In this document: piece by piece, positions 20,823 to 44,465 of the stretch
Layout of the letters: each line of letters starts with the position of its first letter
Position numbering within the stretch: position 1 is the first letter of the stretch
From: Liolophura sinensis
Taxonomy: Eukaryota > Mollusca > Polyplacophora > Chitonida > Chitonidae
Direction of reading: 5' to 3'
NCBI RefSeq assembly: GCF_032854445.1
Contig: NC_088297.1
Coordinates: forward strand, 14,863,039-14,927,038
DNA: 64,000 bases
Translations under genes and position numbers: made by a program
The notes under the pieces: generated by a model
Told to the model about the DNA's origin: nothing
What the model saw: only the letters and a program-made list of their open reading frames with translations
Databases searched by the model: none

Positions 20823-21454
20823 TCTTTCCATAAATAAAATGTGATTGGGGTTTTGTGGTGTACTTTTTGGATCATTTAAGCTGGATGACAGTAACATCAA
20901 TATCTTTTTAGCTGATAAACATCCTCTCATTGCTATACGTCTACGTTAAACATGAACATTCATGTCGTGTTACATCTAGATCAGTATTTAATGCGCAAAT
21001 GTAACACACTTCTTAAGCAGTCTCTAAAGCAGAATATGTGACTTTGTGAGAATATGTGCTTCAGCATATCCAAAATGTCTCCAAATATCCGTCGCTGAAC
21101 CTCAATGATGTTTGCATTTTATCAATCGTATTAAGTTTTAAAAAAAAATGACGAAAGCTATATCTGGATGGTACTTGAAATGGTCCATCGGATGAAGCAT
21201 TTTTCCCCCTCATATATGTATGGGTGGTCTCCAGATAAAAATGATGCCAAAATAAGATGAAAGGGCTTTCAGAACGTATTTGCAAATATTACCTTTAATA
21301 TTTTTTCGATTTTTTTTTTCAGGAAGAAAGGGTATTTAAAGGTATGGTGGGGGTATTTGGGACAATTTTGGGGTATTTATCGTCGTTGCGAATTAAAGTT
21401 CTATAAAAGGATGTGATGTATGTCTAATAAATATATTTGAATGTGAGTAGTTGA

Positions 21455-22051
21455 GAATGTGGGTTTGGTTCCGTTTTGAGGTGGCGGTTTTTGTGGTTTT
21501 GAGGTGGCGGGTGTTGATGCCCAGTTGCCCCGGCTGGGGCAGGCTGGGCAGGTTGGTGGTGACGTCACACCTGCCAGCCCAAAGGGCTGGCAGATGTTGC
21601 AGGTGTGACTTCACCCCTTCGCTGGGGAAGTTTGGTGGGTTTTTTCCACGCCGCGGGGCGTATGTGATGTGTGTAGTAGACTAGAGTATAGTATAACAGT
21701 ATAACCGTAGAGTATAGGGGTATTGGGGAAAAAAAGAGAAAAAAAAAGAGGCAAAACGTCAGCGTGTAAAGTGGCGTGGGACAGCTCGAAAAGAGCTCCC
21801 TGGCGCCAAAACGGACCAATGGGTGAGCCGGATTTGCCCCAAAACGGCCCAAATGGAGGGCCCGCAAAACGGACCTACCTGTGGGGGAGACGGGGGAAAA
21901 ATGAACCCAGCCCGAAGGGCTGGCAGGTGTGACGTCACCCCTTCGATGGGGAGTTTGGTGGGTTTTTTCCACGCCGCGGGGCGTATGTGTGTATACTAGC
22001 GTTATGTATTGACGCACCGGCTGGCTGGCTGGCAACAATGTATACAATGTA
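21455..22051 (+). repeat. GC-rich repeat block (left arm copy)
   Basis: Markedly GC-rich against AT-rich surroundings. Contains two related sub-blocks, about 21568-21685 and 21908-22000. Each has GGGCTGGCAG, then CACCCCTTCG, GGTGGGTTTTTTCCACGCCG and CGGGGCGTATGTG, and between them lies a CCAATGGGTGAGCCGG segment. Long open frames cross it on both strands, but none resembles a known protein and they follow from the GC bias. Boundaries are not marked by clear terminal repeats. Confidence 0.6.
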
Positions 22052-23569
22052 TACAAGGCGCAGCCGATCAAAACAAAAACCACGTGTCCAAACAAAAACC
22101 ACGTGTCAAAACAAAGCACAGCTGACAACATTGTTTGCCTGACTGCGGGCCGGCTGGCGGGTAGGATCGCTCAGCGTGTCTTTGCAACACTGTTCGCCCA
22201 GGAAGGCTCACTGCTGCAGGCAGAGGGTCGGTGTTATGAACCGTAGAGCCTGTCGGTGGGATTTTTTTGGGGTGATCTGCCTGTCTGTCTACCTGCTGGT
22301 TGTGGTAGGGATGGATGGATCGACACCACACCTAAACATGCATGTGCACTGGAGACTCTACTCTACTATACTCTACTCTACTATATACTATATATAGGCG
22401 GTGTAGTGGAATAGAGTACAGTAGAGTATAGGGGAAAAAAAAGAGAAAAACTTGAATCAGAAAATCTCGAAGCTTATAAGAAACTTGGAGATCAATGTGA
22501 TGGTATTTCGCACATATTTTCAGCATCTATATTTTCACCAACATCCACATATTTAAGCGAGATATGTATTCTTAAACGGTTAAATTCAATTATTCTTTAT
22601 CCACTAATCTTCACACACATCTATACAAGACAACCAAATGACCATGAAGGAGAAAACAACTACCAGGTTATATAAAAAAATTCTTTTTTTTTCAATGTTT
22701 TATTCTTCTCTATCAAAAATCTGAAATACGAAAGGATATACCGAAACATACTAATATCTTCAACAGAAACTTGCAGTACTTGCTATGGGGAACCTAAAAG
22801 AGCCCATACGTGTAAATGATAAATACATGATATTGAAAATAAATGATAAATGGGTGCACTGAACAGCTAATTTGACTTTGAAAAGACCGGTCAAAGCAGG
22901 TGTCAAAATGTCTGGCTCTATTAGTAGAGATGTGCTTTCCAAAACATGAGGCAAAAATGGAATTAAATGCTCACAGCAAAGCCATCTAAAATACAACAAT
23001 GGTTTTCTTAAATGGTTAAATTCAGTTATTCTTTATCCACTAATCTTAACACACATATACAAAACAACCAAATGACCATCAAAGAGAAAACGACAACTAC
23101 CAGGTTATATTAAAGAATTCTCTTTTTTTTTTTTTTTTAATGTTTCATTGTTTTCTATCAAAAATCTGAAATATGAAAAGATATACCGAAACATACTAAT
23201 ATCTTCAACAGAAACTTGCAGTACTTGCTATGGGGAACCTAACAGAGCCAGTCTTACATGTTACATTGTACAGCATTGCTGCTAATTTGACTCTGGTTCA
23301 GATGCACTACAAGTACATTTGATAATGAAGCTTTATACACATTTATAACAATGACTTCAGGGAGTTGTAACTTTACATAGTGTAATATTTCATAAACACA
23401 TGGTCAGTACTCAAAGTATTGAGTGAAAACCATGAACGTACATCCTTGAGCTTTGCACTGCCTATGGCATTAGGACATGGTACATGTGTACTGGTGGAAT
23501 GATGCAGAAAAGAGGCAGTGTGTTCAGAAATATTCACGTATATGGCCTATATAGGCCTTTTCTCCTCAA
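22052..23569. repeat. Left-arm-specific segment with an internal direct repeat
   Basis: Absent from the right arm. Holds a direct repeat of roughly 220 bp: about 22575-22800 and 23008-23245 share TTCTTTATCCACTAATCTT, CAACCAAATGACCAT, CTACCAGGTTATAT and AACTTGCAGTACTTGCTATG. A run of CTCTACT/TATA motifs lies at 22355-22435. No gene seen. Confidence 0.6.
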
Positions 23570-23735
23570 GGCCCTGTTCTTTGTACTATTATTGTTATAT
23601 TATTATTATTAACCTTATTAACATAAATCTGCATACAGCTCTTTAATATAAACGAACCCACTCGCCTAGAATGATAACCAAGCATGATGTCCAGTTAAAC
23701 ATGAGATAATTAAGCACACAACACCAATACTTCAC

Positions 23736-26700
23736 CTCTCTGTAAGCATTCAGTGTCCTTGCATCAAACAACATCTGGGTTATTTCTTCGGAATCCCGAA
23801 TGTTCCTGTATTCTGCAGGAACCCTTCCATCCTGACAATGAGATACAGAAAAACACTGAACAAGAAGCAAGACAGATCATTTTTTTTTCGTTTTTTTTTT
23901 ATAGTAAACTTAATTCATGCCCTAAAAATTCACCTGAATATGAAATATTTTTAGAGGTAAATAATGGTCATAAATTATAAAATGAAATTGTGGGAGCTGA
24001 AACTATCGTTTTTCATAAAGAATGTCATCTTACATTCAGGCGTTAAAGCATGTTTCCTCGATTAATAGAACTCCCTGGTTCAGACAAACTTGCTTGGGCG
24101 GTGAAGTATTTGTTTGTCTTTCCTTTTTTCTCTGGACACTAACTTTACCTTCAAGAGGCACACCTAACTGCATCAAAGTGTACTCTGCTGCAAAAACCTT
24201 TGCCCCCTCAACAGTAAAACACAGTTTATTTGGGGTAAATGGGTTACCATTTGGAAACTGAGTACCGAGAGCTGGTATGGTGATCTGAAAGACAAATGTA
24301 CTTTACCATAGATTAACAATGTAAATGCCTAACATCAACTTCTACATGACACTTATACATGTATAAATCACAACCACAAAATTCTTTTTTCGATTTACTT
24401 CAGATCAATTATTTTTATATGATAATTTACTTCTTATTCTTTCTGGTACACATGGACATGATTAATTGTATAAATAAATAAAAAAAGTTACATTCCAGCA
24501 AAAGAACTTGATTCTTATCTCTTCAAACAAGTTTCTTATCAACATTTTGTTGAAACCTATGGTAGTACCTTGTAGAAAAAGAGCTTTAAGAGCTGTTGGG
24601 CACCACTTCCATCCCTTCCCATGTGAGAATGAAGCTGGTATACAGGACTTCCCCATCCATTCTTCTGGCAAAGGTCATCGAGCACCTATAGTGAACATCG
24701 TTACATGCATACACTTTTTGACACTCTTGATTTACTGAAGCCTCACTAGGGCAATCGGGCTATAAATTAAAGGTAATTAGTAAAACAAAAAATTCTTCCA
24801 CAAAACAAAATCATGGTCAAACGTTAAACACAGAGCCTTGCATTATGACAACTTTCAATGATAACAAAACAGCCAATTATTTTAGCTATTAACACACCTG
24901 ATTAACGAAATTTAATTCAAAACTCATTACATGTATAGGAAATATTAGATAAGAATTAGTTTCTAAGTATGTTACCTGTTACTTCAAAGTTTAAACAAAC
25001 ACTTATCTTCAACGAAACTGAACTATCTCACCTTCTGGTTAATTGCACAATCGGTTCATGCCTTTTAGTACGGCGTAGGCAGATTATAGATTTTAAGACT
25101 GCGTAATCCTTTAAGCATGCTCCAGAATAAGTTGCAATGCGCAACTTTTTAATGGGATATGGGACCGGAAACCTTCTGCATTGACAACGATACACACCTC
25201 TGCTGGATGTTTCCTAAAGCCCCACCCCATCATCATCCCTCGGCCTCCCACAGGGCTTCTGATCCCCATGGGACCTCGCTCTGCCAACGCCCTGCTAACA
25301 GTACAAAAAGCACAAATATTCAAGCTATTTCATGGTAAAAATTATGTGACTGAGCATTCTTAAAGTTTCTTCTTCCTGCTTTTCCTCCTGAGATGTTCAC
25401 ATAAAATCAAATATATTGAGCTATTAAAGTTTGGTTGATGAAACTTAATGCGTCTTTGTATACTTACATGTAAGAAGCTCATAAAACGTCTTTTTTTCGA
25501 GGACATTGCATGGATAACACATAAATGCAACTTCTTTCACGTCAAATGACTCTATCAACCACAATGGCAAAACCACTAAATATGGTAGTGTACCTTTCCT
25601 ACATGTATGCTGTTGAATGGAAAGCTACAGAGTGACAATTAAAGAATATAGGTCACAGGTGGTACGAAGTTCACATTAATTCTTGGCAAAAAAGCAAGCC
25701 CCTACCATTCAATAAAATCGCCTGTTTTCAATAAAGCTATGCCTTGCGCAGTCTTGCAAATATTTCTGCTCCATGTGAAGCACCTTCCAACTGAAATCCG
25801 TCATTACCTCATTTTGGATTTTAGTTGCCAAAGTAGACTTGCCCATGTCATTTTTCTAGTTCTCACTCTGTACTCTGTATCCATTAGCATATCAGCAGGA
25901 GAGCTACAACACTGTACTTTGTAAAACCCACTTACATATGCTTATTTACAGTTACAGTTATTACAGACAAATCATAGGTAAAATTTAATCTTAGGTTATC
26001 TAAGATTTCATCTTAGATGATCACAACTGAAATGATTTAAAACCAAAGACAAATATCCTGTTCCTGGTCTGATGCACACAAATGACAGAGCATCTGACAC
26101 TTCTGAGAACCCTGATATTAAACAGACAAACTGGACACACACGGTGGAATATGACAACCTATGCTCTTAATTCCGCAAATATTGTTCTAAGCTAACCGAT
26201 TTTTTATAAAAATTCCAAGAATACAACTCTATTCTGACTGCAAGATCATCTGCTGTGCTGGATTCTCATCTGTATTCTTATATTGGGTGAACAGAGTTGT
26301 GGATTTCAGGCCAAAATAGTTCTTACCTTGCGGGTGGTGGAGACATCGGGTTGTAATACGATGGAGGCGAGTAACTAGGATCATAGCCATAGCCCTGAAA
26401 AATTTGTCACAGTATCAAGTACACTTGTCATACAACCAAAGCATGCATAAAAGCAGATTCGCTCAAACGGCTGAACAGCTGACTTGCTTCCACTGTAGGT
26501 ACTTGACCTATAAATTCATGTACAAATCCAGGTCTTACTCTACCCTGACATAACAGAACCCCCTATCCTACCACATGAGGAACTCTTACCCTGACATATG
26601 ATACTTCTTTCTGCTTCCAAGATTCCAACGCTTCCTGGCCTCTGTTGTATGCTCTATCAACCTCACCCAAGTGGCAGTCCTGATTAGCCTGCAATAAAGA

Positions 26701-29700
26701 ATTTTCATCAGTAATAAAATTCAATTATTTACCTGATATAAATATATATAAATAATTTGGTTTTTATATGCAAAGCTTACTTCACACGTACCTGACATAT
26801 GAGAACCTCCTACCCAGATATATGAGAACCCCCTACCTTAACATATGAGGAACTCTTACCCTGACGTAACAGAGCCCACTACCCTAACATACGAGGAACT
26901 CTTACCCTGACATAACAGAGCCCACTACCCTGACATATGAGGAACTCTTATCCTGACATATGAGAACCTCCTACCCAGATATATGAGAACCCCCTACAGA
27001 TATATGAGAACCCCCTACCTTAACATACGAGGGACTCTTACCCTGACATAACAGAACCCCCTATCCTAGCACATGAGGAACTCTTACCCTGACATATGAT
27101 ACTTCTTTCTGCTTCCAAGATTCCAACGCTTCCTGGCCTCTGTTGTATGCTCTATCAACCTCACCCAAGTGGCAGTCCTGATTAGCCTGCAATAAAGAAT
27201 TTTCATCAGTAGTAAAATTCAATTATTTACCTGATATAAATATATATAAATAATTTGGTTTTAATATGCAAAGCTTACTTCACACATACATGACAGATGA
27301 GTTTACAATGGTGAAAGAAAGCTGATGGGGGAAAAATGTGGACAGGTCCCAGTTTCCGACCAAATACCTTCCACAAACTCTCAATTTGAAAACATTTGAA
27401 CTCTTCCAACTTAACACAGTTTACTTTACATACTATGTTACAGACAAACTTAACCTATGGGAGAGGATGATCGCTGGGCTGTCCTGAATTACACATTTGA
27501 GACGATTTTCACGATGTGGCAGCAACATTGACCAAATGATTTCTTACCTGCTTTCTTCCTCTCGCCCATACAACCTCAATGTAAGCACCTTCAACATTCA
27601 TTCCTAGAGAGAAATATATATATGACTTATTATATAATGCCTTCTCACCTTGATCTTCCTTTAATTTTATTTCTTGAAAGAATGAGGACATAGTACAAAT
27701 GCTACACATCAGTTAAAAAGTGTTCCAGATACAGTCTACCTTGAGTTTCTCCCAAAGAAAACCTCTTATTTTCTCAAAAAATTCCTGGCAAAATGGTCCT
27801 GGGAGCTTGGGTTCAATATTCAGCCTATTACATGTAACTGTTGAAACAACTTCCCTCTTTTAAACATTTGATCATTTAATGTTCAACAGCTTCTTTTCAT
27901 GCTGAATGATTTATTGATTGGCGTTTTTATGCCGTACTCAAGAATATTTCACTTATACGACGGTGACCAGCATTATAGCATGAGGAAACCAGGCAGAGCC
28001 TAATGGAAACCCACAACCATTCACAGGTTGCCGGCAGACCTTCCCATCCATGTTGAATGAGGGATGATATTAAGTTAATAATAAGCTAACATAAAATCCA
28101 ATTTATACAGAAATTTATACAAACAAATATTCTAGAGAATGCCCACACCTTATGTTTTGAAGTGTGAATTTATACTGTATGTGCTCTTCTGTGAATATAT
28201 GTAAGTCTGTCCCATAATTGTGAGCCATTTCCTGTACCTAGTTGGAGTATCAAACATCCTATAGGCAAGCGATGTGTCAGTTATTCACTGTTTCATCTTA
28301 ATTACTTGAGTTAGCATGTTTTTCAAATACTCTCCCTTACATGTTGGTGGATATTCTATCATGTAATTTTCTGTAAACATCAATCAAGTGAAAAACTAGT
28401 TAAAAAATACTAATGTACCACATGTGACTGACAAACGAAAATGAACTTTAACTTATCAGAAACAGAACTATCCGAATGGAAATACATCACACTCTATAAA
28501 TGCACACAAAAACTACATTCGCCTACCGATAGAAAAAATATACTTCCGTTAATGCATTTGTATTTATCCAAAACCAATCAACACAACTCCAAAATAAATA
28601 ATTGTTCTCACCATTAAGTTTAGTCATGGCCATGATAGCAGCATCTCTGTCTCTAAAATGAATGAATGCATAATCTCTTATCTTCTTTACTCTTTCCACA
28701 GCATTGTCTCTTCCCACAACTTGACTGCACAGCTTTCTAATTTTGTCTTCTGTAGTTGTCGACCTAAGGTTCCTCACGTGCAAAACTCTCCTCTGTAATA
28801 CAAATATGCACAACATAAATATTATTCCAGTCATACAAATATGCACAATATTAATGTACAAGATGACGATGCGTCCTTGCTTTTAAGCCATAAGTGACTA
28901 TATTAATTATTACCGCAGCCTCCCATACAAAAGAAATCACTTGTTGCAAGAAATGTTGCGCGCGCGCGCGCACACACCACCCTCTTGTGACAGAAAATGC
29001 AACAAATGCTGCACGCGCGCGCGCACACACACACACCACCTTCTGGTGACGGAAAATGAAAGAGCTGACGATAAGAAATTTCAAGAAGTTACGCGACATT
29101 TTACACATATCCACCCACACAAAATACCCCTTTGATACAAAAAACTTTAGTTCAATTATAACTTTTCAAATAACGGCTTACATAAAGGTCAAATTTGTTT
29201 GGACTGTGATACCTACTCGTGAATTTTACAACTAACCAACCGATATTTCCGACGTCTGGTGCTGTCTACATTGGCAATTAAATGTGTTTTAATTTGCAAC
29301 GAAGAGACAACCAAAAAAGCTTCTATAATGGAAATTACATGACTTACGGGTGAGTTGCAAACACCCAAGAGCTGGCCTTTACGAATTTCGTAGTTGTTAA
29401 GCTCCTTTACCGCTTGATTCGCGTGTTCTTTGTCAGTGTATATAACGAATCCATATCCTCTATGGGATAAAGAGCGGGGGTTCATTACGAGTGTCATTTC
29501 GTAAATCTTCCCTATCTTCTCAAATACTGGAACAAGCTCGTCTTCAAAACAGTCTTTTGGAATACCTCCGACGAAAATTCCACAACCCTTTAAAGAAGCC
29601 GAGCTTTCCCAGTCAGGAGGTGGACCGCCGTACTTTCTTTGCCCTTTTTCTTGCCGTATGGTGTATCCTGTTCTTTCCATAAGTTTCAGCGAGGCTTCGT

Positions 29701-29749
29701 TTAGCTCCCGGGTCACACGACGCGGCAAAGCCTCCTCCGCGGACGCCAT
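23736..29749 (-). CDS. A1CF/RBM46/RBM47-like RNA-binding protein (RRMs plus C-terminal dsRBD)
   Basis: Exons: 29749-29348 (ATG; RRM1 with [10 protein letters not shown] and GYGFVIYTD), 28792-28612 (RRM with RVLHVRNL and DYAFIHF), 27603-27548 (ends [11 protein letters not shown]), 27186-27088 and its near-identical duplicate 26688-26590, 26394-26327 (Tyr/Pro-rich), 25291-25198 (Gly/Arg-rich), 24685-24569 and 24284-24149 (ds[17 protein letters not shown], then [22 protein letters not shown]). All these junctions are GT-AG and in phase. The family binds mRNA (A1CF is the APOBEC1 cofactor; RBM46 acts in the germ line). The middle RRM of the family is missing although RRM1 joins the next RRM in frame. 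The C-terminus is uncertain. Reading through the 24149 donor gives an in-frame TGA at 24038-24036. A possible extra exon 23831-23736 ([13 protein letters not shown]) is open but not in phase with the 24149 donor. Confidence 0.85.
26530..27085 (-). repeat. Minisatellite carrying copies of an exon end and its 5' splice site
   Basis: Units of roughly 30-45 bp read, on the plus strand, like ACATATGAGGAACTCTTACC followed by CTGACATAAC. The segment CTCTTACCCTGACATA is the reverse complement of the exon end plus its GTAAGAG donor. Full donor-like copies lie near 26853, 26899 and 27035; a mutated one (TTATCCTG) is near 26945. The true exon donors at 26589 and 27087 are the array's edges. Confidence 0.75.
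26590..26688 (-). CDS. Duplicated 99-bp exon, downstream copy
   Basis: Encodes [18 protein letters not shown] through YVR, 33 codons, starting and ending in phase 0. It has its own acceptor (AG at 26690-26689) and donor (GTAAGAG from 26589). The copy at 27088-27186 matches it, including splice sites and a good part of the flanking intron. Because the exon is a multiple of three and phase 0/0, including one or both copies keeps the frame. Confidence 0.85.
27088..27186 (-). CDS. Duplicated 99-bp exon, upstream copy
   Basis: Second copy of the 33-codon exon, about 500 bp upstream in the transcript sense. The duplicated unit spans roughly 27055-27290 and corresponds to about 26550-26793. It has intact acceptor (AG at 27188-27187) and donor sites. 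Confidence 0.85.
27906..28050 (-). repeat. SINE A, tail and core
   Basis: In the intron between the second RRM exon group and the duplicated exon; ends at CAGACCTTCCCATCC. Confidence 0.85.
28940..29060. repeat. Two (CG)n(CA)n microsatellites in a short direct repeat
   Basis: GCGCGCGCGCGCACACACCA and GCACGCGCGCGCGCACACAC occur about 60 bp apart with similar flanks (GTGACAGAAAATG and GTGACGGAAAATG). They lie in the intron between the two RRM exons, where the middle-RRM exon would be expected. Confidence 0.8.
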
Positions 29750-31052
29750 ACTTACACCTTGCTGCTGGTCTCACTGCTGACGAACTAGAAGTAGGTAAAT
29801 TGGACTGCGACGCACGTAAGTGGGCTTAGAAGAGCCCTACAGCGCCATCTATGATGTCCAATAATTATTGTTTTATTCAAATTTACATAGAAAAGGAACC
29901 AAATCCCGAGAATGTGACCACAGAAACGTGTAAGGCAACATATAGGTAAAAAAATAAGCTGATAACTTGGAGGCATATGGTTATCTATCACTCGCTGTGC
30001 CACTGCGAAAGCAGTTCACCTGTGAGTCTCAAGTATCGTAAATTGAACCATTCATAGTACGAAATATGGCATGTGTTTATACTTCAGTGAGTGTTCGGTA
30101 CTATAGTCGTGTCAACAAGCGGCCCGGAGTTATTCCCCCTGAAATTCGCTGAACGAAATACATGTCTTTATACTGCATGCTCGTATGATAAATATGTCAG
30201 TTTTAGTCGACGGCCTGCATGTCTAGCGTTATGTTGTACAAAAAAAAACATCACATGAGTTCTGCAAAAAACACCAAGGCTGTTGAAAATGACCCAAATC
30301 CAATCTACTATCGCTGACATCGATTTGACAACAGGCATTGTCCTGTGTAATATTCAAAAATATAAAAAAAAAAACAAATTTTGTTTTCGCGTGGTTCTAG
30401 CTTCTGCATTGTCTTCTAGAACAGCTTATCATGTTCCAGGCAAACCTTCGCACTGCGACGTCCAATGAGCGAGGGACATGACAGACCAATGAGCGCGACA
30501 AGGAGCAAAACGTTGTAAAGTCGAGTGGAGCAGCTCCAACAGCTCCATGCTATGCCAGCTATGCCAACCACCCCGACCCACCTGTGGAACTCTTCCAACA
30601 GATCATGTGATCAGCCATGGATGACCTACGGTACATGTATATTGATCCGGCACTTCAATCTTTCAGACATGGATATACATGTATAACTTAGATTAGGGCC
30701 TGTAAACTAAACACCTGCCTAAACATGGCTCGCATGAGAAAGGTTTGTATTATAATGTGTTATAATAAAGACCGCATTTTTTGACAAATAGAGTTAATTT
30801 TTTTTTTCTTTTTTCATTTTGAAATTGTAGTTTAATTTTCTATCATCTGTATCGATCAATTATACTGCTGGTTTAATATACAGAACCTGTTAAGTATGCA
30901 TGACACGTCTGAGTCAGACTTACCTGGTGACGACACCCGCCTTGATTACTATAGGCCTGATTCTGGGATCAACCATGGCTGTAAGGAATCAGTAACAAAT
31001 CCGAACGTTATCTGAAGACGCCGCGTTTGGGCTTACTCTTCAGGAGATGCGC
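29750..31052. other. Upstream region of the RNA-binding gene
   Basis: About 1.3 kb between the ATG at 29749 and the Harbinger element. Presumed promoter and 5' UTR. CpG-containing stretches lie at 29690-29760 and 30430-30550, the latter with two similar CCAATGAGCG motifs (30461 and 30486). No other gene seen. Confidence 0.35.
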
Positions 31053-31225
31053 TTAAGGTCCGTTTATACAGAGCGCGAACGCGAACGCGGCCAAAGCGAA
31101 CGCGAACGCGAACGCGACTTTTTAGCAGTTTGGCCGTTCAAATAGAGCGCGGAAAACCATCGACAGCTTTCCAGGCGGCTCGCCTTTTTCTTGTTGTGAG
31201 AGTTAAAATTTTGTCATTCTGGATC

Positions 31226-33862
31226 ATGGCACAGGCAGAGTCAGACACGGAGGAGATCATAGCTCTGTATTTATACACAAAACAGCGTAGAAAGAGAAAG
31301 AGGCGTGTGTCCGTGCATGAAATTTTACAGAGAAGAAGTGAATATGGAGAGTACCACCACCTCGTCCAAGAACTGTATTTTCATCCTGCAAAATTTCAGC
31401 AATATTTTCGAATGACTGAGGAGCAATTTGACTACATTTTGGAATTAATTCGAGGCGACATTTGCAAACAAGATACTAACTGGAAGAAGGCCATCACCCC
31501 AAGAGAACGACTGGCCATTTGTTTGAGGTAAGTAAAGTTTCAGTGTTTTCCCTATAATAAGTTAATTTTGGATCTGCAATGTTTATATTTCAGTGGGAAA
31601 TACTGTAGCAGACACGCATTGACAAGGATGGAAAAATAATTAAAAAAAGAAAAAAAACAAAAAAAAAAAAACAACCAAAAAACAAAACAAAACAAAAAAA
31701 AACAAAACAAAACCAAAAAAAAACGTGTAAAATTATAATTAAAAGATTTTATTTATACAATGCATTCGTTAACTAAAACAATACTTGAATAGCATTTCAA
31801 ACATTTATTATGTATGCTTGTGTTCAGTGCAGTAAATCTTTATAATAGGTTCGAGTGAAAAAGAAGCAGTAGTAAAAAATAATCGTAATTATTGTATTAT
31901 CGATTCAAATGTCCAAAATGAAAATAATTACAGTTTGTTCCATCGAATCTTGACTGAAACAGTTCAAAATGAAAACAATAACATTTCCTTTCCATCGCAT
32001 CTTGATGAAAACAGTTCAAATGTTCAAAATTAGCATGAACACTGTTATGTGTTTCTCATTTTGTTTAGCAATATTTTCCTAAATCTAAAGATTTCCTTAA
32101 AATTGTCATCTGCAATTTAAAATTATAATAACTCAAAGAAACAAAGATGCCCTTGTGGTCATCACGATCCCTGAGAGTCCAGAAACTGGGAGTACGACTG
32201 GAAGCCCTGAAAGGTTGATTCCAAGTTGCTTCTGACGGTGGGCTGGCTGCCCATTGGCTGCATGTCATGCGCAGGAGATGTCATGCATCGGGTGTACGTC
32301 AAATTCGGAAGTTCACTCATGGGCTGCATATCAACTGGTGTCGACATTTCAGGGAAGCAGCACTGCATTTCCGCTTGATGTACGACGCTATGTATTTTAA
32401 ACTTAACCTCGGCCCGTTTACGTGCAGGGAGCTTTCTGATTGTTCCGGCCATTGACAGAAGGAACAGATCCACATCATCTTGCTTTTCCTCTCTTTTCTC
32501 AGGAGTACGTGACTTCTTCTTCAAATAGTGACATAAGGTGGCGTCCAAATCATCCTGAGTGCGCCTTTGTTTTCGCTTGGACTGACTTGAGGAGGCAACA
32601 CTGGTGCTCAGTGGTGTAACTGGTCGATCATGTCGTGGCTGGATGTCAGATATTTGACTTGCATCATCTTCTTCGTCAGAGAAGGTGTCTGGTGGCAATG
32701 GGTCCTCATCTGATCCCTCTGTCAAGTTGCTGCTGGTGGGTCTGTCACCCAAGTAGGGGGTTAGAAAGGACAGAGCTTTTGCGTACTTGTATTCCTTGAC
32801 TGGTTTAGCTGCATCCCCGCTCTGGCATTTCAGCTTCCTTTTATATTTAGAAAACCCATCACGCACATTCTTCCAACGAGTTTCCACTTCTTTACCTGAA
32901 ACAGAAATGCAGATCTCTATTAATATCTTTTGTTTGCTTTCAGGTTCTTGACAACTGGGGATTCCTACCACACCATAGCATCGAGTTACCGTGAGGGGGT
33001 TGCGAGAGTGGCAGCAATCGTACGTGAAGTATGCGAGTCGATTTGGAATCAACTACAACCAATTCATCTACCTCAGCCAACTCAAGAAATGTGGCGGCAA
33101 ACTGAAAGGGGATTTCGTGAAAGATGGCAGTTCCCAAACTGCATAGATGCTTTAGATGGAAAGCACGTATTGATTCAGGCGCCTCCCTGTTCAGGAAGTA
33201 AATACTTCAATTACAAAAAATCTTTCTCAATCGTTCTTCTGGCCCTCGTGGATTATCGGTATCGTTTTACATTTGTGGATATTGGTTCATACGGGTCAAA
33301 CAGTGATTCTGGCGTTTTCAAAAACACTGCATTGTTTCGAAAGATGCAAAACAAAACGCTTGCCCTACCGGATGACAAACCATTAATCGTGGATGATCAA
33401 CCCTGTCCTCATGTAATAGTAGGAGATGAAGCCTTCCCGCTCATGACCAATTTGATGCGCCCGTACCCAGGTTCTCATCTGAATGATGCAAGGCGGATTT
33501 ATAATTACAGACTATCGCGAGCAAGGAGAATCTCTGAAAACGCGTTTGGCATACTGGCAAATCGGTGGAGAATGTATCACAGAAAACTCTCTCTATCACC
33601 TGAAAATGTGGAGTGTGCAGTGAAAGCAAGCATAGTTTTACATAACATGCTGTGTGGTGAACTGGAGGTCGGTGCACACGGGGCTGACGTGGAGGCCATG
33701 GAAACAGACATCCACGATGGTGTATTGAGGCCTTTCAGGCGAGAAGGCCATCGACCTAGGGATGCAGCCATTGAGGTGCGAGAACAGTTCAAAAACTATT
33801 TCGTCTCCCCAGCAGGAGCAGTCACATGGCAAATGGAAGAATGCTTTGGACATGCCAATTAG
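31226..33862 (+). CDS. Harbinger transposase (DDE_Tnp_4 / HARBI1-like)
   Basis: Two exons, 31226-31527 and 32944-33862, joined GT-AG in phase to 406 codons. The join gives AICLRFLTTGDSYHTIA, a typical Harbinger helix. Acidic motifs: D172 in CIDALDGKH, D213 and D222 in the segment FVDIGSYGSNSDSGVF, and E299 in RRISENAFG. I cannot tell by eye which of D213 and D222 is the catalytic second Asp. HARBI1-type proteins cut and insert DNA at TWA sites. An in-frame ATG at 31130 could add 32 residues; I chose 31226 because the upstream part looks unlike the family. No stop or frameshift seen, so the protein may be functional. The intron (31528-32943) contains an AAAC-rich run at 31640-31725 and the opposite-strand MADF exon. 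Confidence 0.93.
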
Positions 33863-34585
33863 GACATAGACATGCATCCACACATTCAGAGGACGTTTTA
33901 AACAAAGTGTGACAACAGTCAATTTCCCCAAAGAAGATAATAACATTCACAGCTCTGTCTAGACAATAACGAGAACAGATAGACAAACAGATTGCCTGTG
34001 TTTATTGTATTCCTGTGTATCAGATCTGTCAGTGTGAGACGCAGGCTTTATAATATCGTAATTCCTTCATATACAGGTACGTCTCATAAAATTAGAATAT
34101 TATGAAAATGGTCAATATTTTTGTCAGTTGGTTCAGAAAGTATAAATCATACATTTTGAGGATTTATTACATAAAGTGTTAAATATTTCAAACAGTTGTT
34201 CTTGAAATTTTGCTAATTGGTAGGACATTGTCATTGAAATCAGAAAAAAATATTATCTAAAAATATATTAAGCATTTCCATCATATTCTATTTTTTTTTC
34301 GACGTACCTGTAGTTCTCTCAGAGCTAAAATGGTGTCATTATGATGACTGCTAACATGAAAGTTAAAACGTGTTTAATAATTGAATTGGTACATACAATT
34401 ATGTTAGTTTCATACCATTGTTGACAGAGGCAAAATAAATTGAAATTAATTTCAATCACAGACCTGTCAGTCCAATTTTCTCTCCAATTGCCTTCCAAAT
34501 ATCTTTCTTTTTGACTGTCTCTTTGTAAGCTTTATCAGACTAAAATCAAGACTTCCGTTTTATCCATCTTCTCGGCATCGGCCAT
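32162..34585 (-). CDS. Harbinger accessory MADF/BESS-domain protein, probably disrupted in exon 1
   Basis: Exon 2 (32895-32162) starts GKEVETRWKNVRDGF, the second half of a MADF (Myb/SANT-like) domain. It continues through an acidic and Ser-rich linker and KRKQRR to a BESS-like motif (DDVDLFLLSMAGTIRKLPAR). Exon 1 (34585-34464) starts MADAEKMDKTEVLILV and ends with KAYKETVKKKDIWKAIGEK. Between these parts a short internal deletion removes the expected start of the MADF helix and shifts the frame, giving TGA right after LILV. Harbinger elements use such a protein to help the transposase reach the nucleus and bind DNA. The exon 1/exon 2 splice is otherwise in phase (G|GT). Confidence 0.75.
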
Positions 34586-35249
34586 ACCCTACAAGCAACG
34601 TAGACTGGTTATGAGTAGCGTTTTTCTTGGAAAAGCCATGCCTACAAGTTTCTATTTTTGGAAATGATGCAATGGGAGGTGGTACTTCCTGATTGGTTGA
34701 TACAACCTGATAGTAAGAAATCCGCCGCGGCGTTCTGAAAAATTCGCTCTGGGGGCAATCTCGGCGGTCGTTCGCGCGAACAAATATTTGTTCGCTTTCG
34801 CGTTCGCACTCTATTTGAACGGTTCCATTATAAAAGGACTATACCATTCCAGGACGAAAAACCGCGTTCGCGTTCGCGTTCACGTTCGCGTTCACGTTCG
34901 CGCTCTGTATAAACGGACCTTTACAATTTCTGCTTTTCTGACTGCTGTTGTTGTAGAGATGAGAGCGGCTTCTGCAAGATGGCAACGGTCTAATTATTGA
35001 CTGGTGTTTAACACTGTATATATAGTTCTTTCTCTCTTGACTACCCATTACATGGCGACCGCTCCTCGCCAGGTATATATACAACCCTCAGGCTGACGTA
35101 AAGTTGACGCGGAACCAGCGAGAGCTCTATTCGAACGCTGAACCATTTGGTTAAGGGCCATGGTGAAATTCCTATATAAGCTTTTTCTTTCCTCGGCTAT
35201 TGTAGCATAGACCTATATTAACTGGTATCTTAGGGCATACATTGTACAT

Positions 35250-35700
35250 TACAGATACTATGTATATACAGATACAAAGTTCTGGATTGCTCAACTTCAT
35301 AAACCGGACAGTTTACTCCATTAAGCACCAGATCTTCATTAAGTAATTTTTGCTTCACCTCCTCATTGGGGACAGTGACATTCCACAGATCCCCAGTAAC
35401 GTGGACCAAACCCCTCAACACTTTGGGTCCGCTGCCGATGCGTTCCTGCAACCCATAATAAACGTCAATCGCTTTTACATTGCCTTTAATTCGCAATTTA
35501 AGGCTAAGAGGCCTTTTAATGCGGAAAGCCATTCTGGTGGTGTAAAAAAAAAAAAAAAAAAAAAAAAACCCTCGCCCAAAGGCGCTACCCGGCTGACACG
35601 TCCAACTGTGTGGACGGCCAGTCAGGTACTGCACTGCGTTCTCAACCCCTTGACTGATCAACAGTCAAGTGACAGTGGCCAATGAACTTCGTGCAAGAGT
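35250..35700 (-). pseudogene. Fragment of a retrotransposon-like ORF with an adjoining homopolymer
   Basis: Minus-strand frame with MAFRIKRPLSLKLRIKG, then DLWNVTVPNEEVKQKLLNED and VNCPVYEVEQ. This looks like the RNA-binding ORF1/gag-like proteins of animal retroelements, from which I recall similar DxWNVTxxNEExKxxLL segments. It is short, ends without further domains, and is interrupted upstream by a 24-base homopolymer (about 35546-35569). It lies just outside the inner edge of the right arm. Confidence 0.4.
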
Positions 35701-35862
35701 GCACGAATTTGCTGGTAGGGGGTTCTCATATATCTGGGTAGGAGGTTCTCATATGTCAGGTACGTGTGAAGTAAGCTTTGCATATAAAAACCAAATTATT
35801 TATACATATTTATATCAGGTAAATAATTGAATTTTACTACTGATGAAAATTCTTTATTGCAG

Positions 35863-38812
35863 GCTAATCAGGACTGGCCACTTGGGTGAGGTTGATAGAG
35901 CATACAACAGAGGCCAGGAAGCGTTGGAATCTTGGAAGCAGAAAGAAGTATCATATGTCAGGGTAAGAGTTCCTCGTATGTTAAGGTAGTGGGCTCTGTT
36001 ATGTCAGGGTAGAGTAAGACCTGGATTTGTACATGAATTTATAGGTCAAGTACCTACAGTGGAAGCAAGTCAGCTGTTCAGGCGTTTGAGCGAATCTGCT
36101 TTTATGCATGCTTTGGTTGTATGACAAGTGTACTTGATACTGTGACAAATTTTTCAGGGCTATGGCTATGATCCTAGTTACTCGCCTCCATCGTATTACA
36201 ACCCGATGTCTCCACCACCCGCAAGGTAAGAACTATTTTGGCCTGAAATCCACAACTCTGTTCACCCAATATAAGAATACAGATGAGAATCCAGCACAGC
36301 AGATGATCTTGCAGACAGAATAGAGTTGTATTCTTGGAATTTTTATAAAAAATCGGTTAGCTTAGAACAATATTTGCGGAATTAAGAGCATAGGTTGTCA
36401 TATTCCACCGTGTGTGTCCAGTTTGTCTGTTTAATATCAGGGTTCTCAGAAGTGTCAGATGCTCTGTCATTTGTGTGCTTCAGACTAGGAACAGGATATT
36501 TGTCTTTGGTTTTAAATCATTTCAGTTGTGATCATCTAAGATGAAATCTTAGATAACCTAAGATTAAATTTTACCTTATGATTTGTCTGTAATAACTGTA
36601 ACTGTAAATAAGCATATGTAAGTGGGTTTTACAAAGTACAGTGTTGTAGCTCTCCTGCTGATATGCTAATGGATACAGAGTACAGAGTGAGAACTAGAAA
36701 AATGACATGGGCAAGTCTACTTTGAACTAAAATCCAAAATGAGGTAATGACGGATTTCAGTTGGAAGGTGCTTCACATGGAGCAGAAATATTTGCAAGAC
36801 TGTGCAAGGCATAGCTTTATTGAAAACAGGCGATTTTATTGAATGGTAGGGGCTTGTTTTTTGCCAAGAATTAATGTGAACTTCGTACCACCTGTGACCT
36901 ATATTCTTTAATTGTCACTCTGTAGCTTTCCATTCAACAGCATACATGTAGGAAAGGTACACTACCATATTTAGTGGTTTTGCCATTGTGGTTGATATAG
37001 TCATTTGACGTGAAAGAAGTTGCATTTATATGTTATCCATGCAATGTCCTCAAAATAAAAAAACGTTTTATGAGCTTCTTACATGTAAGCATACAAAGAC
37101 GCATTAAGTTTCATCAACCAAACCTTAATAGCTCAATATATTTGATTTTATGTGAACATCTCAGGAGGAAAAGCAGGAAGAAGAAACTTTAAGAAGGCTC
37201 AGTCACATTATTTTTACCATGAAATAGCTTGAATATTTGTGCTTTTTGTACTGTTAGCAGGGCGTTGGCAGAGCGAGGTCCCATGGGGATCAGAAGCCCT
37301 GTGGGAGGCCGAGGGATGATGAGGGGGTGGGGCTTTAGGAAACATCCAGCAGAGGTGTGTATCGTTGTCAATGCAGACGGTTTCCGGTCCCATATCCCAT
37401 TAAAAATCTGCGCATTGCAACTTATTCTGGAGCATGCTTAAAGGATTACGCAGTCTTAAAATCTATAATCTGCCTACGCCGTACTAAAAGACATGAACCG
37501 ATTGTGCAATTAACCAGAAGGTGAGATAGTTCAGTTTCGTTGAAGATGGGTGTTTGTTTAAACTTTGAAGTAACAGGTAACATACTTAGAAACTAATTCT
37601 TATCTAATATTTCCTATACATGTAATGAGTTTTGAATTAAATTTCGTTAATCAGGTGTGTTAATAGCTAAAATAATTGGCTGTTTTGTTATCATTGAAAG
37701 TTGTCATAATGCAAGGCTCTGTGTTTAACGTTTGACCATGATTTTGTTTTGTGGAAGAATTTTTGTTTTACTAATTACCTTTAATTTATAGCCCGATTGC
37801 CCTAGTGAGGCTTCAGTAAATCAAGAGTGTCAAAAAGTGTATGCATGTAACGATGTTCACTATAGGTGCTCGATGACCATTGCCAGAAGAATGGATGGGG
37901 AAGTCCTGTATACCAGCTTCATTCTCACATGGGAAGGGATGGAAGTGGTGCCCAACAGCTCTTAGAGCTCTTTTTCTACAAGGTACTACCATAGGTTTCA
38001 ACAAAATGTTGATAAGAAACTTGTTTGAAGAGATAAGAATCAAGTTCTTTTGCTGGAATGTAACTTTTTTATTTATTTATACAATTACTCATGTCCATGT
38101 GTACCAGAAAGAATAAGAAGTAAATTATCTTATAAAAATAATTGATCTGAAGTAAATCGAAAAAAGAATTTTGTGGTTGTGATTTATACATGTATAAGTG
38201 TCATGTAGAAGTTGATGTTAGGCATTTACATTGTTGATCTATGGTAAAGTACATTTGTCTTTCAGATCACCATACCAGCTCTCGGTACTCAGTTTCCAAA
38301 TCGTAACCCATTTACCCCAAATAAACTGTGTTCTACTGTTGAGGGGGCAAAAATTTTTGCAGCAGAGTACACTTTGATGCAGTTAGGTGTGCCTCTTGAA
38401 GGTAAAGTTAGTGTCCAGAGAAAAAAGGAAAGACAAACAAATACTTCACCGCCCAAGCAAGTTCGTCTGAACCAGGGAGTTCTATTAATCGAGGGAACAT
38501 GCTTTAACGCCTGAATGTAAGATGACATTCTTTATGAAAAATGATAGTTTCAGCTCCCACAATTTCATTTTATAATTTATGACCATTATTTACCTCTAAA
38601 ATATTTCATATTCAGGTGAATTTTTATGGCATGAATTAAGTTTACTATAAAAAAAAACGAAAAAAAAATGATCTGTCTTGCTTCTTGTTCAGTGTTTTTC
38701 TTTATCTCATTGTCAGGATGGAAGGATTCCTACAGAATACAGGAACATTCGGGATTCCGAAGAAATAACCCAGATGTTGTTTGATGCAAGGACACTGAAT
38801 GCTTACAGAGAG
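35863..38812 (+). pseudogene. Inverted partial copy of the RNA-binding protein gene (3' exons only), frameshifted
   Basis: Exon copies: 35863-35962, 36158-36225, 37261-37354, 37866-37982, 38266-38401, 38717-38812. They correspond one-for-one to the minus-strand exons from the 99-bp exon to the end, with introns preserved, so this is a genomic duplication and not a retrocopy. The first exon has an extra G near 35875 (GACTGGCCAC against GACTGCCAC in the parent), giving an in-frame TGA soon after. No RRM exons precede it. Missense changes include Leu to His at the start of the dsRBD exon, Met to Arg in the Gly-rich exon, and Gly to Arg and Phe to Ser in the second dsRBD exon. Splice sites are retained. 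Only the 99-bp exon frame is visibly broken. Confidence 0.85.
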
Positions 38813-38977
38813 GTGAAGTATTGGTGTTGTGTGCTTAATTATCTCATGTTTAACTGGACATCATGCTTGGTTATCATTCTAGGCGAGTGGGTTCGTTTAT
38901 ATTAAAGAGCTGTATGCAGATTTATGTTAATAAGGTTAATAATAATAATATAACAATAATAGTACAAAGAACAGGGC

Positions 38978-39537
38978 CTACATTGTATACATTGTTGCCA
39001 GCCAGCCAGCCAGTGCGTCAATACATAACGCTAGTATACACACATACGCCCCGTGGTGTGGAAAAAACCCACCAAACTCCCCATCGAAGGGGTGACGTCA
39101 CACCTGCCAGCCCTTCGGGCTGGGTTCAATTTTCCCCCGTCTCCCCCACGGGTAGGTCCGTTTTTGGGCAAATCCGGCTCACCCATTGGTCTGTTTTGGC
39201 GCCAGGGAGCTCTTTTCGAGCTGTCCCACGCCACTGTACAAGCCGACGTTTTGCCTCTTTTTTTTTTTCTCTCTCTTTTTTTTCCCCTATACTCTACGGT
39301 TATACTGTTATACTATACTCTAGTCTACTACACACATCACATACGCCCCGCGGCGTGGAAAAAACCCACCAAACTTCCCCAGCGAAGGGGTGACGTCACA
39401 CCTGCAACATCTGCCAGCCCTTCGGGCTGGCAGGTGTGACGTCACCACCAACCTGCCCAGCCTGCCCCAGCCGGGGCAACTGGGCATCAACACCCGCCAC
39501 CTCAAAACGGAACCAAACCCACATTTTCAACTACTAA
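38978..39537 (-). repeat. GC-rich repeat block (right arm copy)
   Basis: Reverse-complement copy of the 21455-22051 block with the same two internal sub-blocks (39047-39125 and 39345-39440). It ends at CCAACCTGCCCAGCCTGCCC and the following AAACCCACATTTTC. Confidence 0.6.
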
Positions 39538-39899
39538 TGTGAATTTGTTTTTTACGTCCAAACATATGCATTTATTCTGAATTACGATAATATTAATGAA
39601 TATATCAAATATAAACATGATCAAAATCCAGGTTGAACACATTTGTTAGCTGAAAAGACCAAACATTTTATTTTTCATTATTTATACCATTATTGCTCAT
39701 ATTTACAACTAATTTTTCATACTCTTATGACCTTTATGTATTTTTTACGCATTTTGTAATTAACAGTAACACTACCTGCTGTGCTTGAGGGACTACTTTT
39801 GTGAGGTTTGCCCTCACCAGGGCTGTTTCCTTGCTGTAACCTCTAAGTAATGAGCGCCAAGAGAGACAGCAGCTCGTACGGAACCATTTTTTAAGCCTT

Positions 39900-41675: not shown

Positions 41676-41718
41676 AATTATACATGACCTCCAGTATAAA
41701 TGAAAAAGAAAAATGTAA

Positions 41719-42717
41719 TGTTATGTATGACTATTTAACGTCTTCATGTACTGTTAGTCTGCGGACCTTTGTGAAAGCATAACAGGCCCTGTTATATATG
41801 TAAAGCGCGGACCTGGTGGAAAGCACCTTGTTCAAGGCTTTGTTTATTTCACTGGCTGTTAATTCTGTGTTTAAAAATAGTTGAATCCACATGGGACGTA
41901 TATAAGCCGTGTTTTCTGTGCAGAGGGGAGGTATTTTTGCTGCATCCACTGGGAGCCAGGAGAGCGTGCGACGCTCTCGTATCGAGTCCATTATGTTTAT
42001 ATGAGCTGGTGATGCCAGTTTCATTTGGGAGGACAGATTTTTATGCCGGCACCGTTTGTGTACCACAGTAGTACTGATGTCTGGTTTATGTGAATTTCTG
42101 CGGAAGTCACGTTTATTGGTGTTCGGATCTTTATTATGATTATACAGTGTTGACTGTGTAATTTGTTTAACACGCTGACCTCACCTGACCGACAAGGTCA
42201 AGGACTCTAAACTGAAGTTTTCAGTTTTGCAAAGGACGTTCGTTCTGCCACAAGGTGACATTACTCTACGTCTCTGAACGGCTCGTTTGTGAGCTTCTGC
42301 GGGAGCTGTGACTGTTCTAAAGTGGATTATACCTCCATGCCTGTATTTACCCTGTGTTGTGCTCTGCGGGTGTGACGTCATTCAAAGGCTTGACTGTTCC
42401 AGTTCTGTGTAACCTGTGTACTGTGTTCGCGTTCGCTATCCTAGCGAAGTACCTGACTAGGACAATTTGTGACTTGTGTGAATTGTGTGTTTATCCCATG
42501 GTCTTTACGTTGGATCTCCTGGAACACGTTCCTTGGGATGCAAAGGTGAACTGGAAACTTGTAAAGACCGGTAATACTGATGTGTATGTTTTTTTATGTT
42601 GTTGTTGTTGAACTGTCCGTAAAACTGTACGTCTCATTTTATATATAAAGCCATTGTTTACATTGTAATATTGAGTCACTGAGTCTGTTTTCTGTTGCTG
42701 TTTTCAATACCGTTACA
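41719..42717 (+). mobile_element. Solo LTR of an LTR retrotransposon, 999 bp
   Basis: Begins TGTTATGTATGAC, ends AATACCGTTACA, and is flanked by a 4-bp duplication GTAA (41715-41718 and 42718-42721). A TATA-like TATATAAG near 41900 fits an LTR promoter. No coding domain lies inside. The same flanking sequence without the insertion is present at about 42985-43042 (GGAAAATGTAAGATACTC), which fixes the boundaries. The strand is not determined by content; plus is nominal. Confidence 0.75.
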
Positions 42718-44139: not shown

Positions 44140-44465
44140 TGCATGATATCAGCTCGTGTCAAAATGTGTTTTATCAGTTTACGTAAAATCTCAGATCAGC
44201 TAATACAAGTAAGCAACATGGAATCGGCTGACAGGTAAGCGTTGAAATCAACTTGATCGCGAACAATCTCACTTCAGCTAATGAAGATAAGCTGCATGAA
44301 AGCTCAGGCAAAAAGTGTGATCTTAGACAGGTAAACTGTGTGGCGTCAGCTTAAGAACAATTTGATTTAAGCTCGTCCAGGTAAGCAGCATAAGACCAGC
44401 TTAGGTAAACTGTGATATCAGCGTAAAATGTGCGATGTCAGTTCAAGTGAACTGTGTGATATCAA
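44140..44465. repeat. Degenerate short tandem repeats at the TDP2 3' end
   Basis: Loosely repeated TCAGCTNANNNAAGTAAGC and GTAAACTGTGTGATATCAG motifs of about 25-35 bp. The TDP2 stop and last codons (ITQFT) fall within the last unit, so the protein's final residues appear to derive from the repeat. Confidence 0.45.

Follow-up and report, generated by a model that had tools for sequence, protein, structure and literature searches.

How did some 18 kb in the genome of Liolophura sinensis come to carry the same sequence at its two ends in opposite orientations, with half of a gene and a DNA transposon between them? The stretch in question lies within the 64,000 nucleotides analysed here (the window; C3:14863039-14927038), and the genome searched was the window's own assembly (609 Mb in 632 contigs), to whose contigs the names C1, C3, C4, C6, C7, C8, C13 and C437 refer. 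In our reading the 18 kb are, with high probability, a single mobile element, a non-autonomous derivative of the virus-like, self-synthesizing Polinton/Maverick lineage, and the gene is its cargo.

Comparison of the window with itself (BLAST) aligns 23569-26837 with 38979-35714 in reverse at 98.3% identity over 3273 columns (45 mismatches), 21496-22051 with 39508-38979 at 91% over 560 columns (15 mismatches, the remainder gaps), and the outermost 21446-21493 with 39488-39535 at 94%; the arm matches have an E-value of 0, which excludes chance. An initial annotation had placed the arms at 21450-26838 and 35711-39537 and proposed the alignment just given, and its layout is confirmed with nearly the same coordinates. 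The 1.5-kb presence/absence it noted between the arms is a stretch found in the left arm only, pieces of which occur in other elements of the family, so that a deletion from the right arm is likelier than an insertion into the left. Its inner breakpoint, said to lie in a minisatellite with exon copies, falls at 26837/35714 among copies of exon E5, and the spacer does hold half a gene and a DNA transposon: the 5' exons of a gene on the minus strand, together with a nested Harbinger. Beyond the reach of the annotation were the nature of the outer ends, which are the termini of a transposon and are flanked by a target-site duplication, and the dispersal of the arm sequence through the genome.

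The evidence for a single insertion comes from these ends. Both termini read AGTAGTTGA(A/G)AATGTGGGTTTGG..., the element beginning AGTAGT and ending ACTACT, and each is flanked by AATGTG. A left-edge search finds other genomic loci that start exactly at the base equivalent to window position 21446, which mirrors the outer end of the right arm, and the 28-base terminus, with up to three mismatches allowed, has 29 matches in the genome against 0 for the reversed pattern. Nine end pairs were tested (the window, six from the terminus search, and two with the second end from the left-edge search), 13 of the 29 termini being unpaired and most pairs having been chosen by the terminus sequence itself. 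All nine have AGTAGT...ACTACT ends, and in seven of them, the window and six of the eight others, the 6-bp flanks are identical, their sequence differing from pair to pair. When the window flanks are joined over one AATGTG, the 400-base query matches 38 other places through the junction, mostly over query bases 1-322 and at 78-81% identity, and the element evidently sits within a copy of another (host) repeat. With AATGTG at both ends and the joined flanks uninterrupted elsewhere, the 18 kb entered as one block, so that neither misassembly nor duplication in situ can account for the structure as a whole. A Helitron, our first idea as gene pieces with introns were dispersed, was dropped upon the ends and the target-site duplication.

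We therefore regard it as scarcely credible that the arms are an assembly artefact, in which an alternative haplotype or a chimeric read was joined in reverse. In a heterozygous animal two alleles could differ by the 1.3-1.7% or so that separates the arms, but a misjoin would neither leave identical 6-bp duplications at the ends of terminal repeats nor give flanks that close into an uninterrupted repeat, and the six other end pairs with identical flanks show the same arrangement with sequences of their own. The description of a large inverted duplication enclosing half a gene and a DNA transposon thus stands, whereas the suspicion of a misassembled allele fails on the target-site duplication and the empty site.

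The assignment to Polintons rests on the ends and on proteins in same-ended relatives. Vertebrate Mavericks, in the sections of PMC8097293 cited here, have (AGT)2//(ACT)2 ends and 6-bp target-site duplications, and the excerpt used of PMC6431247 gives Polintons as 15-25 kb long with a type B DNA polymerase (PolB), an integrase, an adenovirus-like protease and a packaging ATPase. The window element shares these ends, the 6-bp duplication and the size class (18,090 bp, or about 14.2 kb once the nested Harbinger is subtracted), and its relatives in the same genome carry an integrase-chromodomain protein, PolB and an adenain-like protease. The same-ended element C6:1362203-1374146, read as two pieces, has an integrase matching rve (3.8e-11) and Chromo (4.7e-10) and an adenain-like protease matching S273R of African swine fever virus (PDB, 9.7e-6); C6:45832359-45847239 matches its integrase, ATPase and protease at about 68-95%, in damaged pieces. 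PolB was recognized in a 1326-residue frame at C4:17.78 Mb (DNA_pol_B_2 4e-10, above cut-off), short PolB pieces having given no Pfam match in a first test, and long capsid-like frames are conserved between two same-ended elements. Genome-wide, there are 151 match rows for PolB and 119 for the integrase, with some loci counted several times. One integrase compared with IMG/VR, the sole viral-contig scan, had no match there, in a scan that may omit records near the window's genome. We also note that C3:25203596-25208488, inside one cargo-bearing bounded element, holds three integrase frames of 431-436 residues about 1.9 kb apart.

Several observations weigh against this assignment. The clear PolB match comes from outside the nine end-tested elements, and the best DNA_pol_B_2 score among the PolB pieces of same-ended elements is 1.2e-4, which is below the cut-off. 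The protease of C6:1362203 has no Pfam match, its ATPase is a weak, A32-like one (Pox_A32 0.0014, below cut-off), and the capsid-like frames have no significant match in Pfam, nor in PDB for the one tried there. Two of the nine end pairs, C6:1362203 and C3:17882768, lack identical 6-bp flanks; the former is the element with the best integrase, and the flanks of the latter differ by one base only. Searches with Polinton proteins (tblastn) detected no PolB, integrase, ATPase or protease in the window copy, nor in the fetched pieces of the C8 element. It is for the missing PolB and integrase that we file the window copy as a non-autonomous derivative and not as an autonomous Polinton, from which it differs also in its terminal inverted repeats of 3.8-5.4 kb and in carrying a spliced, intron-bearing gene of cellular type.

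When E1, E3, E4, E5 (26590-26688), E6, E7, E8 and E9 are joined by GT-AG splicing, one frame stays open throughout. The product matches RRM_1, the RNA recognition motif (RRM), at 2e-16 in E1 and again at 3.7e-9, and an exon piece matches DND1_DSRM at 3e-4 in the left arm and 4e-5 in the right, both below the cut-off. Among PDB proteins it matches SYNCRIP (2.4e-34), hnRNP R (1.3e-33), DND1 (7.4e-24) and APOBEC-1 stimulating protein (6.5e-15), and the cargo is by these signs a predicted multi-exon gene of the A1CF/RBM46/RBM47/DND1 type. With that group and SYNCRIP it shares RRM1, an RRM3-like domain and perhaps a piece of a DND1-type double-stranded RNA-binding domain. The differences are that RRM1 occupies a single exon in the cargo and is split across several exons in a host paralogue at C1:64.38 Mb (46-51% identity in the matched RRM1 and RRM3 pieces), and that the three consecutive RRMs of A1CF, RBM46 and RBM47 are not found in the window copy, from which RRM2 is absent.

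The absence of RRM2 is shared by most copies. Of 20 E1 copies fetched, 16 resemble the window in that RRM1 leads directly into a GTAAGT donor, and the other four (at C3:8.52, C6:64.14, C1:50.75 and C1:53.68 Mb) continue into a second RRM. The C3:8.52 Mb copy has RRM1 and RRM2 in one 277-residue frame (RRM_1 4e-28 in two stretches; DND1 in PDB, 1.4e-38), and relative to it an in-frame deletion has taken about 96 codons from the window copy, between RRM1 and the common donor. A genome search with RRM2 lists the four RRM2-keeping cargo loci, the host paralogue and one short piece. It follows that the original cargo was a three-RRM gene of the A1CF/RBM46/RBM47 type, from which the most numerous cargo subfamily, the window included, lost RRM2. 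Exon E5 varies in number: there are two copies in the window and 1, 3, 3, 5, 6, 1, 6 and 6 in cargo copies L001 to L008 respectively, counted with overlapping matches merged by eye, and none was found in copy L010. We note separately that 23535-24090 (556 bp) is a stretch with an exon-like open frame that abuts the family-wide boundary at 24091 and is shared by a piece from C6:77.09 Mb (its positions 2750-3294); the exon-like 23738-23831 within it was left out of the gene model, as joining it to E9 shifts the frame.

Both halves of the gene are spread through the genome. The left arm as query gives 310 matches, and among those listed at least 2 kb of 24092-26540 is held at 18 places beyond both arms, on eight large contigs and one small one, at 91-97% identity and with the introns included. 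The 5' exons are dispersed in like manner (genome search), and with two host-type loci excluded the cargo gene is present at about 24 loci with E1 matches. Six of the nine end-tested elements carry it: the window, C8:9448363, C13:7063009, C3:12452229, C3:25169989 and, as a fragment only, C7:33701175. All six have perfect target-site duplications, and four also carry Polinton genes (PolB in C13, C3:12452229 and C7; three integrases in C3:25169989). A Polinton without the gene (L034) has in common with the window the end sequence and 29818-30434, whose near edge is 69 bp from the start codon on its upstream side; the captured sequence must therefore lie between the two.

One could instead suppose that a host gene family spread by ordinary duplication and that Polintons later inserted into or beside its copies. 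The retained introns indicate copying at the DNA level, as ordinary duplication would also have it, and bounded elements with cargo number only six, one of them a fragment, against about 24 E1 loci. We nonetheless find this account highly improbable, as the duplications of all six cargo-bearing elements are mutually different and lie outside the cargo, as the joined flanks show the cargo to have come in with the block, and as the gene-less Polinton shares sequence on either side of it. Rather, an ancestral Polinton may have captured the gene as DNA, introns included, and the window's lineage would then have lost PolB and integrase and been moved in trans by relatives keeping both.

The position of the gene bears on the other possibility raised in the initial annotation, that a host gene was duplicated in situ as an inverted segment and is the source of a long hairpin RNA and hence of small interfering RNAs (siRNAs) directed at the parent mRNA. 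The two arms are 98% complementary over a long distance, and RNA transcribed through both would fold. Against this, the outer ends are the termini of a transposon, complete with target-site duplication and empty site, and the sequence is dispersed. The cargo gene is read leftwards starting at 29749 and extends over the left arm alone, and the right arm is without E1-E4 and has a one-base insertion in its E5. With the 5' end of the cargo leading into one arm alone, any hairpin transcript would have to be driven by a promoter beyond the element. The arms thus seem poorly placed as a source of siRNAs, only one of them lying within the gene's transcription unit, and we consider the hairpin explanation very unlikely.

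If the 18 kb are a Polinton derivative, the arms are its terminal inverted repeats, and it is their length that is peculiar. In four other elements the repeats, measured between end pieces, span 94 (C8), 116 (C6:1362203), 335 (C6:45832359) and 440 columns (C3:17882768), or about 0.1-0.4 kb, against a right arm of 3.8 kb and a left arm of 5.4 kb in the window element; the C13 end piece stops short of its terminus and was excluded. There is no other close, opposite-oriented pair of long copies of the 24092-26540 gene part among the matches listed. Over 24149-26394 the arms diverge by 1.34%, and either arm differs from the 18 other copies by at least 1.75%; the arms are thus each other's nearest relatives, which argues that an inverted copy of the left end took the place of the right one. 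Two bases (CC) are common to both sides of the inner breakpoint. The left 5.4 kb could have been copied by fold-back or template switching on the terminal repeats, either before or after insertion at the window site, and a 1.5-kb deletion, the Harbinger insertion and about 1.4% substitution between the arms would have followed. That this mechanism of arm growth is drawn from a single copy counts against it. The window copy illustrates how terminal inverted repeats may extend inward to include cargo, and repeats enlarged in this way can pass for segmental inverted duplications or assembly errors. Two observations may be added here. Of the other copies of the dispersed repeat at 35275-35713, many are spaced at about 6.1 kb in arrays found on several contigs. 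And C3:12464423-12489461, inside a 47-kb bounded element, holds the 5' half of the cargo gene twice in opposite orientations, and is perhaps a second internal inversion in the family.

Is the cargo merely carried along, or did it function? The E1 set comprises 21 rows including the window, from about 24 loci with three fragmentary ones left out; its C437 and C7 proteins are identical and may be two haplotypes of one locus. In this set nonsynonymous changes exceed the neutral mean (123 vs 107.5, one-sided P 0.0006), and synonymous changes (30 vs 40.0, P 0.02) and stops (1 vs 6.5, P 0.006) fall below it. A one-ratio GY model gives a nonsynonymous to synonymous rate ratio (omega) of 1.80, with twice the log-likelihood difference from omega 1 (2dlnL) being 9.95; omega is 2.12 with 15 rows (2dlnL 10.7), 1.87 with the same 15 rows when the most variable stretch is removed (6.3) and 1.86 when the window copy is omitted (10.3). 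Under the MG model it is 1.46, an estimate only, without significance test, and pairwise ratios average 1.27. PolB is constrained, the N-terminal part of its frame having an omega of 0.22 among four related elements, one of them cargo-bearing.

The 3' half of the gene is less clear. The E6-E9 set contains all 18 listed places and C6:64.1 Mb (in pieces), 18 of these 19 being in the divergence alignment, from which a 16-copy set omits the three most divergent copies and the right arm. Among the 16 copies, exons within 24149-26394 diverge more than introns (0.0401 vs 0.0210; 0.0289 vs 0.0169 at non-CpG sites), and segregating sites differ likewise (P 0.004; non-CpG P 0.03; Fisher tests with site counts back-calculated from rounded rates). 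Divergence is highest at second codon positions (0.055), third positions being at 0.039. Indels in multiples of three number 3 of 6 in exons and 8 of 62 in introns, too few to decide. Evidence against a functional cargo is that third codon positions also exceed the introns, that the variant classes of E6-E9 fit neutrality with no depletion of stops (3 vs 3.8), that pairwise dN/dS there is 0.80, and that stops, frameshifts or the loss of a splice donor are seen in some copies; many cargo copies may be relics.

The cargo might thus be a neutral passenger, its excess of amino-acid change in E1 stemming from base composition or from just a few of the copies, and the behavior of E6-E9 and of third positions would fit this, as would the different depths at which PolB and cargo were compared. 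We think it a real if rather unlikely possibility, given that the GY omega stays at 1.8-2.1 in four sets of rows and columns (2dlnL 6.3-10.7), that E1 is nearly free of the stops expected, and that exons exceed introns at non-CpG sites too. Our reading of these alignments is that the gene functioned as the family expanded, that RRM1 was diversifying, and that many of today's copies are in decay. The cargo protein would then be made, or have been made until recently, with its first RRM under diversifying selection.

It is possible, and we offer it tentatively as somewhat doubtful, that the Polinton lineage took over a germline-type RNA-binding gene as an effector, with the changes in RRM1, RRM2 and E5 as its marks. 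RRM1 would be under positive selection, most visibly between RNP2 and RNP1, RRM2 would have been deleted in frame in the young and most numerous subfamily, and the phase-0, 99-nt exon would vary from one to six copies between elements. Such a pattern could fit competition among elements, or an arms race against silencing by the host at the RNA level, and the enlarged terminal repeats would place half of the effector gene at both ends of the element.

Polintons are relatives, perhaps ancestors, of many eukaryotic DNA viruses. The excess of amino-acid change in cargo E1 relative to the constrained PolB makes a role for this cargo testable. Nematode Mavericks carry a wosp protease and krma kinase cargo (Widen, as told in the portion cited of PMC10680173), and the window element resembles them as an animal Maverick with a cellular gene; it differs in that its cargo is an RNA-binding protein, and no sign of interspecies transfer or incompatibility was seen. 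Intact vertebrate Mavericks have intronless open reading frames (ORFs), according to the same sections of PMC8097293 as above. Searches of the open literature found no Polinton with RNA-binding cargo, which does not establish that none is in print. Polintons with cellular cargo are already known, and what is added here is the intron-bearing cargo, the loss of a domain, the variation in exon number and the growth of terminal repeats by kilobases.

Table 1. Positions in the window of the element, its cargo exons and its inserted sequences
Feature	Position	Strand	Basis
Whole element, non-autonomous Polinton/Maverick derivative, 18,090 bp	21446-39535		shared termini, target-site duplication, empty site
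Left target-site duplication AATGTG	21440-21445	+	read from sequence
Right target-site duplication AATGTG	39536-39541	+	read from sequence
Left arm, enlarged terminal inverted repeat including the gene's 3' exons	21446-26837	+	self-comparison
Left-arm-only stretch	22052-23568	+	self-comparison; pieces in other family elements
Stretch with full-length match only in right arm and at C6:77.09 Mb (among matches listed)	23535-24090	-	genome search
Exon E9, putative part of DND1-type double-stranded RNA-binding domain	24149-24284	-	DND1_DSRM 3e-4, below Pfam cut-off
Exon E8	24569-24685	-	splicing
Exon E7	25198-25291	-	splicing
Exon E6	26327-26394	-	splicing
Minisatellite around exon E5 and splice donor; left arm's inner breakpoint inside	26537-27301	-	self-comparison
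Exon E5, second copy	26590-26688	-	splicing, copy search
Exon E5, first copy, 99 nt, phase 0-0	27088-27186	-	splicing, copy search
Exon E4	27548-27603	-	splicing
Exon E3, RRM3-like domain	28612-28792	-	RRM_1, splicing
Exon E1, start codon, RRM1; RRM2 deleted from 3' part	29348-29749	-	GT donor, open frame, RRM_1 2e-16
Polinton sequence just upstream of cargo, also in gene-less Polinton	29818-30434		comparison with L034
Nested PIF/Harbinger transposon	31056-34920	+	TTA target duplications 31053-31055 and 34921-34923
Harbinger MADF/BESS protein	32162-33052	-	profile match
Harbinger transposase ORF (DDE_Tnp_4)	32924-33862	+	profile match
Unrelated dispersed repeat, fragment at inner breakpoint	35275-35713	+	genome search
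Right arm, left end copied inverted, without the 22052-23568 stretch	35714-39535	-	self-comparison

The nested transposon is a PIF/Harbinger element with nothing unusual about it, sharing with that group the DDE_Tnp_4 transposase, the MADF partner and the 3-bp TTA duplication, and its site is uninterrupted in two other copies of the Polinton element (L029 and L031). Outside the window Polinton, 41716-42685 is an element of about 1 kb, of which a 94% copy lies inside the C8 Polinton (L029, 3964-4956). No Rfam match was found in the window at gathering thresholds. An abundant dispersed repeat of 150-260 bp, likely a short interspersed nuclear element, is present at 181-454 and at many other places in the window. 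Frames within 44443-49961 resemble what we take to be pieces of TDP2, and 47742-49961 is a minisatellite with a 155-160-bp period whose units encode, on the minus strand, part of a protein similar to those frames, possibly a second exon-derived minisatellite in the window.

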